Part shown: positions 5,528 through 27,471 of the stretch, piece after piece
How positions within the stretch are numbered: the first letter of the stretch is position 1
Layout of the letters: every line of letters begins with the position of its first letter
Source of the DNA: an uncultured Oscillospiraceae bacterium
GTDB lineage: Bacteria > Bacillota > Clostridia > Oscillospirales > Oscillospiraceae
Length of the DNA: 42,352 nucleotides
Direction of reading: 5' to 3'
Assembly (NCBI GenBank): GCA_946546815.1
Contig: CAMNOL010000007.1
Span: forward strand, 1-42,352
Position numbers and translations under genes: made by a program
The notes under the pieces: generated by a model
Told to the model about the DNA's origin: nothing
Seen by the model: only the letters and a program-made list of their open reading frames with translations
Databases searched by the model: none

Positions 5528-5720
5528 TGAGCCCTGCGGGGTGCGTGATGATCCTTTTTTTAACCCACATTTCTGAAAAGGGACGCAATAGCTCTCATAA
5601 CTGTTTGCAGACCTCCCGGTCTCGGCCGGAAGCTGGTAGCAGTAACGTTATGCGGCGGCGACCCACCTGCCTATTTGGTGCAGGTTGAATCGGGATCACA
5701 CGGCTCATGCGGGGTTTTTC
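5528..5720 (+). ncRNA. ssrS: 6S RNA (SsrS)
   Basis: The ~190-nt segment matches the clostridial 6S pattern. A closing helix (TGAGCC at 5528-5533 with GGCTCA at 5702-5707) is followed inward by an imperfect helix (GTGATGATCC with GGATCACAC). The 3' half holds the typical GGCGGCGACCCACCTG hairpin whose other arm is CAGGTTGAATCGGG, with GGATCACACGGCTC before a T-rich end. 6S RNA mimics an open promoter and sequesters sigma-A RNA polymerase in stationary phase. No good promoter is seen immediately upstream, so it may be processed from the DUF1292 transcript. Boundaries are approximate. Confidence 0.85.
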
Positions 5721-24200: not shown

Positions 24201-25364
24201 TTATACTTCTGCACCGACGAGATCCTGGTCTTTGATCTCCACCGGCACGCCGTTGACCTCCACGCTCTCATCCACCCGGATGGTGATGTACCGGATGCCG
24301 TCGATGACCCGGGTTTTCACCTGGTCCAGGTACTCCGGGTCCACCTTGATGGACACGCTGGGGGTTTTCACCTCAAACTTTTTGCTGTCAATGAGGTTTT
24401 TCGGGCTCACCGGGTGGTCGGTGCCGAATTCGCTGTCAAATTTGACGTTGAAGGCCGCCATGCGCTCCTCAGACACGCCGCAGCTCTCCAGCACCTCTCC
24501 CACATCGGCCCGGGTGATGGTCAGCGGCTCCGACACCTTGCTCTCTTTATGGGCGACGATCATGGACCGCAGCTGGTCGTGGACGGACTGGACCACCTCC
24601 ATGCTGCACTCCTCCTCCAGCGCATTGGACAGCACCGCCTCAAAGCCGGCCTTCTGCTCGGCGGCGGGCATGGGGGGCTGGGTGTGGAAGATCCGGTCGA
24701 TGAACGCCTCATGGGCGTCCTTGATGTCCTTGGTGTAAAACAGCGCGTTGTACAGGTTGGCCCTCCGGTCGTCAAAGGCGGGAAACAGGAAGCCCATCAC
24801 CGGGGGGGAGACCAGCAGGTCCCCGTACTCCATATGGAAGGCGTTCTGATCCCGGTCGTAGCTCAGGCCGGACTTGCTCTTTTTCACCGGACAGATGCTG
24901 CACAGCAGGTGGGAGAACACCTCCTCGGAGCGGTCGCTGTCCCGGTCAAACACGTCGGTTTTGGAGCGGAAGGGCACGTCATAATTGCTGTGGGCGACGA
25001 GGATCAGGTAATTCTCCTCCCCCTCCAGGGTTTCAATGACCCTCTGGTAGAACTCCTCCAGCGCCTCCCGATCCTGGAGCCTGGTGTCCCGCAGCTTCAT
25101 GAGAAACGCGTGTTCCTCCCCCTCCGCCACCTGCATGGTGGTGAAGGAAATGTCCACCAGATTCCGGCCCAGGCCGCCGGACAGGGACTTTTTCAGCAGA
25201 CCCAGGTACTGCTCCCGCTCCTCGTCGTTGAGCATCCCCATGGACTGCTCAAAGGTGGAAATGATCTTCTTCTGCTCGTTGACATAGCAGCCGTGAATGG
25301 TCACGATGGTGTGGCGGTCCGGATGCAGGTGCCGCCGCAGCTCCGCTACTTCTTTTTCGTTCAT
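24201..25364 (-). CDS. DUF4317 protein
   Basis: This 387-residue soluble protein has no signal or membrane segment. It starts MNEKEVAELRRHLHPDRHTI and contains YLILVAHSNYDVPFRSKTD, CSICPVKKSKSGL and PPVMGFLFPAFDDRRAN, patterns I associate with the DUF4317 family of clostridia. Function is unknown. The start has AAGGAGAG upstream. A very good promoter lies about 32 bases above it, so it is monocistronic. Confidence 0.8.
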   Translation of the reverse strand: MNEKEVAELRRHLHPDRHTIVTIHGCYVNEQKKIISTFEQSMGMLNDEEREQYLGLLKKSLSGGLGRNLVDISFTTMQVAEGEEHAFLMKLRDTRLQDREALEEFYQRVIETLEGEENYLILVAHSNYDVPFRSKTDVFDRDSDRSEEVFSHLLCSICPVKKSKSGLSYDRDQNAFHMEYGDLLVSPPVMGFLFPAFDDRRANLYNALFYTKDIKDAHEAFIDRIFHTQPPMPAAEQKAGFEAVLSNALEEECSMEVVQSVHDQLRSMIVAHKESKVSEPLTITRADVGEVLESCGVSEERMAAFNVKFDSEFGTDHPVSPKNLIDSKKFEVKTPSVSIKVDPEYLDQVKTRVIDGIRYITIRVDESVEVNGVPVEIKDQDLVGAEV

Positions 25365-25424: not shown

Positions 25425-25484
25425 CCGAACGGTGTCTGGTCGCCTTCAGCGCAAAAATAATGGTTTCTTTTTTCAAGTTAGCTC

Positions 25485-25513
25485 TTGACAACCGAAGAGA
25501 AATCCGCTATACT
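25485..25513 (+). promoter_or_regulatory. Sigma-A promoter of a small RNA gene
   Basis: TTGACA (25485-25490) and TATACT (25508-25513) are 17 bases apart; no coding sequence follows before the terminator at 25661-25688. It is divergent from the DUF4317 promoter. Confidence 0.88.
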
Positions 25514-25519
25514 GCAAAC

Positions 25520-25688
25520 AGTTAGCAGAGGCAAACTCCTTTCTCCTTTTTTATTACCTGTTTGACAATCTGTCTCTGCCAGCGTCCTCCTCCATCAGAA
25601 GTTCTCCTCGCTTCTGAATCTGCATTGAAGCGGAATGCCATAGCTGCTCCGATGCAATAACCCGCAGGCTGCATCCTGCGGGTTTTTT
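25520..25688 (+). ncRNA. Candidate small regulatory RNA with anti-Shine-Dalgarno loops
   Basis: A ~169-nt unit lies between a strong promoter and a strong terminator and has no ORF. Hairpin 1 uses GCAGAG (25525-25530)/CTCTGC (25574-25579) extended by CAAAC (25532-25536)/GTTTG (25560-25564); its 23-base loop (25537-25559) contains TCCTTTCTCC. A single-stranded linker holds CCTCCTCC (about 25586-25593). Hairpin 2, CAGAAG/CTTCTG (25596-25616), has loop TTCTCCTCG. Hairpin 3, GCAT..CGGA/TCCG.ATGC, precedes the terminator. The three exposed CU-rich stretches can pair with AGGAGG-type ribosome sites, like C-rich-loop sRNAs of other Firmicutes. I recognise no named family. Confidence 0.7.
25661..25688 (+). 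terminator. Intrinsic terminator of the small RNA gene
   Basis: CCCGCAGG-CTGCAT-CCTGCGGG is a perfect 8-bp stem followed by TTTTTT. Confidence 0.93.
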
Positions 25689-25852
25689 ATGTTTTTATAG
25701 GATTCAGCAGCAAAGACCGTGGAGCTGCTCTGGGTCATTTTGTAACAGACACCATTACCTTCTGTTGGAGAACGCCGCGGCCAGCTTGCGGGCAGGCCAA
25801 GAGTGATGGTCAGCCCTGGGAACCGGCGTCAAGGAGTCAGTAGCAACGGGCC
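25689..25852. other. Intergenic stretch with nothing recognised
   Basis: The 164 bases between the small RNA and the 3' end of the glycerophosphodiesterase gene show no convincing ORF, terminator or promoter. Confidence 0.5.
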
Positions 25853-26584
25853 TCACCCTTTCTGTTCCCTCAGTACCTGCCGCACCATATCCGGCTTGTT
25901 GGTGATGATGGCGTCCACCCCCAGCGCGGCCAGCCGCCGAACGTCCTCCGGCTCGTTCACCGTCCACACATGGACCCGCTGTCCCGCCCGGTGGATCTTG
26001 TCCACCGCGTTTTTCCGGTACATATCTTCAAACTCCGGATGCAGCGCCATCCAGGAACGGTGATCCAGATGCCGGATCACCAGGGATTTCCAGCCCTCGT
26101 ACAGCAGCGCAGCGGGAATCTCCCGGTCGATGAGGTGGAGCTTTTTCAGCCGGGAAAAGTGGAAGGAGGAGTACAGAATCCGGTTCGTCATGCCGAATTC
26201 CTCCGCCAGCGCCACGCACTTGCGCTCCAGCCCGGTGTCGGAAAAGATGCCGGTTTTCAGCTCCACATTCACCGTCAGGTTCGTGGGTGCGATCAGCTGG
26301 AACGCCTCCCGCAGGGTGGGCATGGTGACGCCGTGAAACTCCGGGAACGTGTAGGAGTAGTCGTAGCTTCTCAGCTGCTCACAGGTCATTTTTCTCACCT
26401 TTCCGGTGCCGTTGGAGCAGCGATCAATGGTGTCGTCATGGGCTACCATCACCTCGCCGTCCCGGGACAGACGGACATCCAGCTCAATGCCGTCCGCCCC
26501 CAGCTCAATGGCCTTTTCAAAGGCGGGAAGGGTGTTCTCCGGCGCGTAGGCCGACGCCCCCCGGTGGGCCCAGATTTTAATCAT
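25853..26584 (-). CDS. Glycerophosphodiester phosphodiesterase
   Basis: This 243-residue cytoplasmic TIM-barrel enzyme (no signal peptide) hydrolyses glycerophosphodiesters to glycerol 3-phosphate and an alcohol. The catalytic set is visible: H7-R8 (AHRGASAYAPENT), E34 and D36 (DGIELDVRLSRDG) and H49 (VAHDDTIDRCSNGTG). The barrel closes with HVWTVNEPEDVRRL and GVDAIITNKPD. The ATG at 26584 overlaps the stop of the upstream radical SAM gene as ATGA, so the three-gene unit here is tightly coupled. A longer frame upstream is only the overlap with that gene. Confidence 0.95.
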   Translation of the reverse strand: MIKIWAHRGASAYAPENTLPAFEKAIELGADGIELDVRLSRDGEVMVAHDDTIDRCSNGTGKVRKMTCEQLRSYDYSYTFPEFHGVTMPTLREAFQLIAPTNLTVNVELKTGIFSDTGLERKCVALAEEFGMTNRILYSSFHFSRLKKLHLIDREIPAALLYEGWKSLVIRHLDHRSWMALHPEFEDMYRKNAVDKIHRAGQRVHVWTVNEPEDVRRLAALGVDAIITNKPDMVRQVLREQKG

Positions 26585-27471
26585 TCTTTGTTCTCTCCTT
26601 TGTGCTGATGCAGCGCCCGGTTCAGCGCGTTCAGCACCCTTTTTTTGTCTCCGCTCCACAGAGGAGCGATGAGGATCCGTTTGGGACCGTCCCCGGTGAG
26701 CCGATGCACCACCATATCCTCCGGCAGCAGCGACACGCAGTCCCGAACCAGCTCCACATACTCCTCCAGCTCCAGCGTGGGGAACTTCCCCGCCCGGTAG
26801 TCCTCCGCCAGGTCCGTTCCCTCCAGCACATGGAGCAGCTGCAGCTTGATGCCGCCGCTGTGCACCTGCACCACATGGCGCACCGTGTCCAGCATCTCAG
26901 ACCGGCTCTCCCCGGGCAGCCCCAGAATGACGTGGGTCACCGTGTGGATGCCCATGGGGTTCAGACGCTCCACCGCCCGGTCGTACACCTCCAGCGGGTA
27001 GCCCCGGCGGATGTACGCCGCCGTTTCCGGGTGGATGGTCTGGAGCCCCAGCTCCACCCAGACGGGCTTATACCGGTTCAGCTCCTCCAGCAGCGCCAGC
27101 ACTTCCTCTCCCAGGCAGTCCGGCCTTGTGGCGATGGACAGCGCCGCCACATCTTCCCGGCGGATCACCGGCCAGAACAGCCCGCTCAAGTACTCCACAG
27201 GTGCATAGGTGTTGGTGTACGCCTGAAAATAGGCGATAAACCGGCTGCTTCTGGCTTTTCCGGCCACCCGTTTCTTAGCCTGCCGGATCTGCTCCTCCAG
27301 GGGCAGCATGGCAGAGGGCGCAAAGTCCCCGCTGCCCCCTGCGGAGCAGAAGATACAGCCCCGGGTGTCCAGGGTCCCGTCCCGGTTGGGACAGGTCATG
27401 CCCCCGTTCAGGCTCAGCTTGTAGAGCTTTTCCCCGAAGCGGGCCTTGCAGTACTCAGACAAGGTGAGCAT
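26581..27471 (-). CDS. Radical SAM protein of the TIGR01212 (YtqA/YhcC) family
   Basis: The protein has 296 residues. The iron-sulfur cysteines are C27, C39 and C42 (CPNRDGTLDTRGCIFC), the widely spaced motif of this family. Further signatures are FQAYTNTYAP, SIATRPDCL and WVELGLQTIHP. The Bacillus homologue YtqA has been implicated (named MnmL) in making the 5-aminomethyl group of wobble uridine in tRNA, usually with the methyltransferase YtqB/MnmM; no ytqB is seen nearby. The ATG at 27471 is used (GGAGGG about 7 bases upstream) rather than the GTG at 27477. It overlaps the preceding peptidase gene by 17 bases and the following one by 4. Confidence 0.88.
   Translation of the reverse strand: MLTLSEYCKARFGEKLYKLSLNGGMTCPNRDGTLDTRGCIFCSAGGSGDFAPSAMLPLEEQIRQAKKRVAGKARSSRFIAYFQAYTNTYAPVEYLSGLFWPVIRREDVAALSIATRPDCLGEEVLALLEELNRYKPVWVELGLQTIHPETAAYIRRGYPLEVYDRAVERLNPMGIHTVTHVILGLPGESRSEMLDTVRHVVQVHSGGIKLQLLHVLEGTDLAEDYRAGKFPTLELEEYVELVRDCVSLLPEDMVVHRLTGDGPKRILIAPLWSGDKKRVLNALNRALHQHKGENKE

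Follow-up and report, generated by a model that had tools for sequence, protein, structure and literature searches.

What does the ORF-less stretch between two minus-strand genes of an uncultured Oscillospiraceae bacterium encode, and to which signal does it respond? The stretch lies in a window of 42,352 nucleotides, the whole of the DNA analyzed, which is contig C7 of a genome of 1.86 Mb in 145 contigs that is 94% complete; other genomes of the genus are filed under the names Oscillospiraceae, Ruminococcaceae or Clostridiales. It is flanked by a DUF4317 gene (24201-25364) and a glycerophosphodiester phosphodiesterase (GDPD) gene (25853-26659). With moderate confidence the locus is read here, from its own sequence and that of its relatives, as a stand-alone gene for a trans-acting sRNA that would be repressed by iron through a DtxR-type regulator and would act like IsrR of Staphylococcus or FsrA of Bacillus subtilis.

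The transcription unit

Judged from its signals, the locus is a predicted stand-alone sRNA gene, devoid of an ORF and equipped with its own promoter and terminator (Table 1). The promoter matches the consensus at 11 of 12 positions, and the 561 bp that were scanned contain two promoter-like sites compared with a mean of 0.2 in shuffled sequences; the second is on the minus strand (25424-25396) and faces DUF4317. The terminator consists of a perfect 8-bp stem (CCCGCAGG/CCTGCGGG) with a loop of 6 and six T residues, and its stem extends to 10 pairs, 7 of them G-C, if the outer A-T pairs are counted (25659-25684). No ORF of at least 60 amino acids starts inside the unit. The longest plus-strand frame, among those of at least 10 codons, is a 32-codon TTG frame with no visible Shine-Dalgarno sequence. 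The promoter with its 17-bp spacer, the approximately 169 nt free of an ORF and the 8-bp terminator followed by six T, all of them claimed in a preliminary description of this DNA, were borne out by the promoter scan, the ORF list and the terminator scan. Two plus-strand ORFs further downstream (25803-26063 and 25970-26608) are antisense to the GDPD gene and were taken as spurious.

Table 1. Features of the sRNA locus; positions are those of the window
Feature	Position	Strand	Basis or remark
sRNA gene, predicted transcript of ~169 nt	25520..25688	+	promoter and terminator scans, fold z -4.75, homologues
Promoter TTGACA-17-TATACT	25485..25513	+	scan; both hexamers identical in 9/9 aligned type A genes
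Operator AGTTAGC-AGAG-GCAAACT	25520..25537		1 mismatch to AGTTAGCNNNNGCTAACT; ~+1 to +18
Weak candidate for a second box, across the -35	25476..25493		3 mismatches; chance level on its own
Hairpin 1, 37-nt open loop at 25534-25570	25521..25583	+	fold; 5' arm overlaps the operator
CU stretch 1 (TCCTTTCTCC), unpaired	25537..25546	+	fold
CU stretch 2 (CCTCCTCC), linker, 5' foot of hairpin 2	25586..25593	+	fold, type A comparison
Hairpin 2 (P3), with CU stretch 3 (TTCTCCTCG, 25602-25610) in its loop	25595..25617	+	fold, type A comparison
Hairpin 3 (P4), loop GCCATAGC at 25637-25644	25621..25656	+	fold, relatives
Intrinsic terminator	25659..25688	+	stem equivalent to P5 of the type A relatives

No Rfam family was matched at the gathering score, in agreement with the earlier statement that none was recognized; the best weak match at the sRNA is anti-hemB, with 19.4 bits as against the 49.5 needed. 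When 14 loci with relatives were compared with Rfam, only ribosomal S10-Clostridia leaders were found, and a search of phage records with the sRNA gave no match. Elsewhere in the window, a 6S RNA is located at 5528-5719 (56.6 bits in Rfam; gathering score 46.4).

The operator at the transcript start

The predicted transcript begins with an imperfect palindrome. In a first operator search, 400 genomes of the family were scanned with the 19-mer CAGTTAGCAGAGGCAAACT, allowing 2 mismatches, and matches were found in seven genomes, including those of the window and of its homologue G024. The five other genomes have no sRNA at the site: according to translations read by eye, two sites are at feo and one is near a feoB-like gene; the remaining two lie upstream of DtxR-family genes (Fe_dep_repress and Fe_dep_repr_C domains) in two other genera (L039, L042). 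Because these sites sit at feo and DtxR-family genes, the stretch at 25520-25537 was taken to be a palindromic operator.

Searched for in the own genome with at most 2 mismatches, AGTTAGCNNNNGCTAACT occurs at seven places, including the sRNA, compared with three for the reversed control. Besides the sRNA, these places are near an HMA-feoB operon, a FeoA-FeoB fusion that is preceded by a MarR gene, an ABC transporter and DUF3793 (two sites), and a weak site lies 390 bp from an Fe-hydrogenase gene. Across 32 genomes of the genus, 169 sites were counted versus 58 for the control; 29 genomes were above their control, two equal and one below. Among the neighbors in the genus, 20 of which were picked by hand and 16 of these domain-scanned, with two DtxR genes in addition, are ferredoxin, FMN reductase, PFOR, PFL, ZIP and FeoA, and also a C1-like peptidase. 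At the place of the possible second box, an AGTTAC half site is present in six of eight homologues; it is missing from G024 and altered in G008. Since the sRNA promoter has the same switch as iron-uptake genes, the RNA is probably made when iron is short. The own genome, at 94% completeness, encodes a single Fe_dep_repr_C protein, and we infer that a DtxR-family repressor binds the box at +1, with iron rather than manganese as the metal.

Two further observations concern the operator at other genes. Within about 255 bp upstream of DUF3793 of the own genome there are two operators (L045, C54:7120 and 7356), and DUF3793, identified by Pfam in L045 and L082 and by similar starts at other loci, may be part of the iron regulon. 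The same operator precedes PFOR (L085 by Pfam; L146 by reading) and pyruvate formate-lyase (L072, Pfam), which suggests metal control of the pyruvate branch.

Related genes in the genus

When 98 relatives were searched with the sRNA by blastn, matches were obtained in eight genomes: the own genome, one true homologue (G024), similar in its promoter and 5' end, and six with short matches, three of which (L004, L006, L008) were read and contained no homologue. Inspection by eye of the regions upstream of DUF4317 in the genus yielded no copy beyond that of G024. The sequences downstream of operators contained seven more genes of what is here called type A, nine in total with the window and G024.

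A covariance model (R1) was built from the P3-P5 part, 116 positions, of eight type A sequences including the window; G024 was left out because it lacks that part. R1 recovered its training set and further detected, in six genomes, a second copy, called type B, which in every case lies directly downstream of an operator (E 1e-6 to 2e-4). Over the 400 family genomes, the best match outside the genus had an E value of 0.0028 and was treated as chance. Within the genus, type A is present in 9 of 32 genomes, type B in 6 and either one in 10. Common to both types are the TTGACA-17-TATACT promoter, the operator at +1, CU-rich unpaired stretches and usually a hairpin with a GCCAUAGC loop. This P4 hairpin occurs in the window, in six of the eight other type A genes and in all six type B genes, and is missing from G008 and G024. 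CTCCTTT follows the operator in all nine type A genes. The number of CU-loop hairpins varies within the family, G024 being reduced to hairpin 1 and the terminator. Homologues in relatives, the search for which had been proposed in the preliminary description, were found, and they have kept the CU stretches. A scan of GTDB 220 contigs for the promoter, the box and CTCCTT returned 17 contigs; eight are type A genes of genomes already known, seven have the box before enolase and two are other.

That CU stretches go together with the absence of a coding sequence was seen in a survey of 236 operator places, resolved by strand and distinct in their 60-base contexts, at loci that cover part of the 169 sites. 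Thirty-eight overlap a promoter. Thirteen of these have no ORF (at least 45 codons with a Shine-Dalgarno-like stretch) over a distance of 282 nt, and every one of them is a type A or B gene. At least three CU motifs (CCTCC, CTCCT, TCCTC, CTTCC and TTCCC, counted in 200 nt) are present in 12 of the 13, the exception being G024, versus none of the 25 with an ORF. The Fisher value of 5e-9 for this association is an overstatement because the genomes are related and not independent.

Two side observations were made at these loci. In seven of seven relatives (L068, L090, L096, L125, L135, L139, L157) a second operator palindrome lies inside a long stem after P5, with its half sites kept and its spacer letters variable; it could serve repression by looping or as a roadblock. 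On the strand opposite to the type B gene, an S10-Clostridia ribosomal leader (Rfam) was identified at L217 and L229-L233.

Predicted fold and covariation

The 169-nt RNA is predicted to fold with -55.6 kcal/mol, compared with a mean of -38.8 for shuffled sequences (z -4.75; none of 200 as good), and the opposite strand, the reverse complement of 25485-25688, folds less strongly (z -2.94). The three CU stretches are positioned as previously claimed and occupy the same places as in the type A relatives, but the first supposed loop is in fact an open loop of 37 nt. The earlier account of three hairpins was also incomplete, in that the 5' arm of hairpin 1 is the operator palindrome and the loop of hairpin 3 is common to most relatives. 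As the conserved 5' stretch is the operator, it is a DNA switch as well as an RNA stem, and since it is the most conserved stretch of all, constraint at the DNA level explains part of the conservation. Hairpin 3 probably, as a guess, serves for protein binding or stability and not for pairing through its loop.

Compensatory changes in the stems, which had been named as the support to look for, were obtained for P4 by hand alignment at the loop, whereas the automatic alignment yielded an unfavorable covariation term. For the hand alignment, the string GCCATAGC served to find the P4 hairpins in 13 rows, taken from regions from which R1 was built (7) or which it found (6); that all 13 rows share this string is therefore in part a consequence of the selection. 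In this alignment 93% of the cells pair, and 9 of 13 pairs show double changes, a result reached by none of 2000 shuffles; since the alignment was made at the loop, the count leans towards structure, and most of the double changes are contributed by the window row alone. Pairing falls to 33-48% when the alignment is slid out of register. RNAalifold, applied to the automatic alignment, gave a covariation term of +2.14 and double changes in 4 of 26 pairs; automatic alignments misplaced the stems of the window. With a model of the P3-P4 part from which the window was left out (R2), the sRNA locus was the best match in the 42-kb window (15.9 bits, E 0.063), and it was not among the matches up to E 1 in a search of the whole genome. 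The sRNA locus of the window is likely a member of the family, most strongly so in promoter, box and loop 1.

Possible targets and the identity of the metal

The first loop of seven of the nine type A members reads CCTCCTTTCT, like the anti-Shine-Dalgarno tail of 16S rRNA. A 17-mer of the 16S 3' end, with 1 mismatch allowed, was found in only 1 of the 32 genomes, with the mismatch inside the tail, so that the standard tail sequence was used here; an excess of A before AGGAG in the own genome agrees with it. Against start windows (150/405 genes sampled), loop 1 of type A reached a z of -2.7 relative to shuffled loops and the loops of the window itself -0.8 to -1.9, and loops 1 and 2 of the window bound reversed windows even better than start windows.

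A target screen by simple duplex energies covered 717 genes, 43% of the own genome, with crude gene calls, motif and energies. The Fe-S cysteine motif was not enriched among the predicted targets, occurring in none of the 35 top genes versus 12 of the 682 others. Here the preliminary description fares less well: it had proposed a repressor of several targets, for which no Fe-S enrichment was obtained and whose loops pair with start windows little better than shuffled loops do. A role of the GCCAUAGC loop in covering start codons (GCTATGGC) was rejected, as the matches at 30 loci from a longer list were mixed, many of them inside genes, and formed no iron-gene pattern.

The missing Fe-S enrichment would fit a different regulon, in which an anti-Shine-Dalgarno sRNA with a metal box would answer to manganese or to metals in general and have targets unrelated to iron enzymes. 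DtxR-family proteins include manganese regulators, and in one relative the box is present at a ZIP transporter gene. Arguing against this possibility, which is considered unlikely, are the named neighbors of the box, hand-picked with two DtxR genes in addition, most of which are feo, ferredoxin, hydrogenase, PFOR and PFL genes.

The enolase connection

In all five type B loci whose neighbors were read, enolase (Pfam) follows about 0.3-0.45 kb downstream of the copy, with no clear terminator seen in between; the sixth locus, L231, has no enolase match. In addition, seven of the 17 contigs of the GTDB 220 scan (L167, L168, L172, L174, L175, L180, L181; titled Ruminococcus, Oscillospiraceae or Clostridia) have an operator at the enolase promoter and a CTCCTTTC leader, although the scan pattern itself required CTCCTT. 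Cis control of enolase by metal is possible in these seven. Both sets of loci would be accounted for if the sRNA descended from an iron-box 5' leader that acts in cis on enolase, as the place of type B would have it, with type A and the copy in the window as detached duplicates whose present action would be in trans, on enolase or a few mRNAs; we regard this origin as improbable. The own enolase has neither the operator box nor GCCATAGC and thus no such leader, its start region comes 199th among 717 in pairing with loop 1, by which it was rejected as a target, and the seven leaders are not among the loci with GCCATAGC after the operator.

It is very doubtful that there is no regulatory RNA at all and that the operator and the short terminated transcript arise as a side effect of an iron promoter that drives DUF4317 divergently. 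This gene is divergent, has its own promoter-like site and also neighbors the G024 homologue. DUF4317 is, however, absent from the seven other type A loci (3.3-8 kb each), where the promoter, the CU loops and P3-P5 are nevertheless kept; in addition, shuffled sequences fold much less stably, and the box is located after the -10 of the sRNA itself.

Comparison with known iron-sparing RNAs

An iron-repressed, trans-acting sRNA of the iron-sparing class, to which IsrR, FsrA, RyhB and MrsI belong, is the reading preferred here and would function as follows. With plentiful iron, the iron-charged DtxR-family repressor on the +1 box would block transcription of the sRNA; when iron is low, repression would be lifted and the sRNA made. 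Through its unpaired CU stretches it would bind a group of mRNAs at their Shine-Dalgarno regions and keep them from being translated, so that iron would be spared for essential use; by analogy, these messages would be those that encode iron-using enzymes.

IsrR of Staphylococcus is described as an iron-starvation sRNA of 174 nt with three stem-loops (H1-H3) and a terminator, C-rich stretches in the H1 loop, the H2 loop and the 5' foot of H2, and Fur boxes in the promoter and just past +1 (PMC9410917). Compared with this description, the sRNA of the window is similar in size, in its three hairpins and terminator, in the placement of its CU stretches and in having repressor boxes in the promoter, the second box being weak here, and after +1. 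It differs from the described IsrR, with its Fur boxes and C runs, in its DtxR-type box, its CU runs and its GCCAUAGC hairpin. Staphylococcus belongs to another class of Bacillota than the host of the window. The same source describes FsrA of B. subtilis as iron-repressed, under Fur control, aided by Fbp chaperones and binding Shine-Dalgarno sequences by a C-rich motif, predicts IdeR control for MrsI of Mycobacterium, and characterizes the iron-sparing sRNAs of different bacteria as unrelated RNAs with overlapping targets (PMC9410917). By that description, the likeness to MrsI lies in its predicted control by IdeR. IdeR is of the DtxR family, and Mycobacterium is of a different phylum.

RsaE/RoxS and RsaA, which had been put forward as parallels, are Firmicute sRNAs with C-rich pairing sites that respond to signals different from that proposed for the sRNA described here. 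The parallel holds for the unpaired stretches of C-rich type; the metal-regulator operator at +1, however, points to iron starvation, and IsrR and FsrA are therefore closer. Up to E 10, the Rfam matches in the window include none to FsrA, RsaE/RoxS or RsaA, all of which we take to have Rfam families. No title in the literature covered, outside of which most subscription journals fall, dealt with this RNA or with an iron sRNA in this group.

A more elaborate proposal, which we put forward as a speculation of low probability, is that of an RNA family that arose from a metal-regulated enolase leader, was duplicated into a trans-acting iron-starvation sRNA and reached the IsrR layout independently, with a loop 1 that mimics the ribosome tail and favors mRNAs with an extended Shine-Dalgarno sequence, and with a second operator in the 3' stem of seven relatives.

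If the preferred reading of an iron-repressed sRNA is true, uncultured gut-type Oscillospiraceae would possess an iron-sparing sRNA under a DtxR-type box, showing how anaerobes with an Fe-S-based energy metabolism meet iron limitation. It would also be an independent case of the IsrR layout and would make the features needed by an iron-sparing RNA testable. The operator offers an easy way to search for iron-regulated RNAs in organisms that do not grow in culture. In Candidatus Enterenecus (L179, at about 3969), one promoter region contains two operators, downstream of which lie a short CU stretch and then a strong hairpin resembling a terminator; this may be an iron-box sRNA of unrelated origin.
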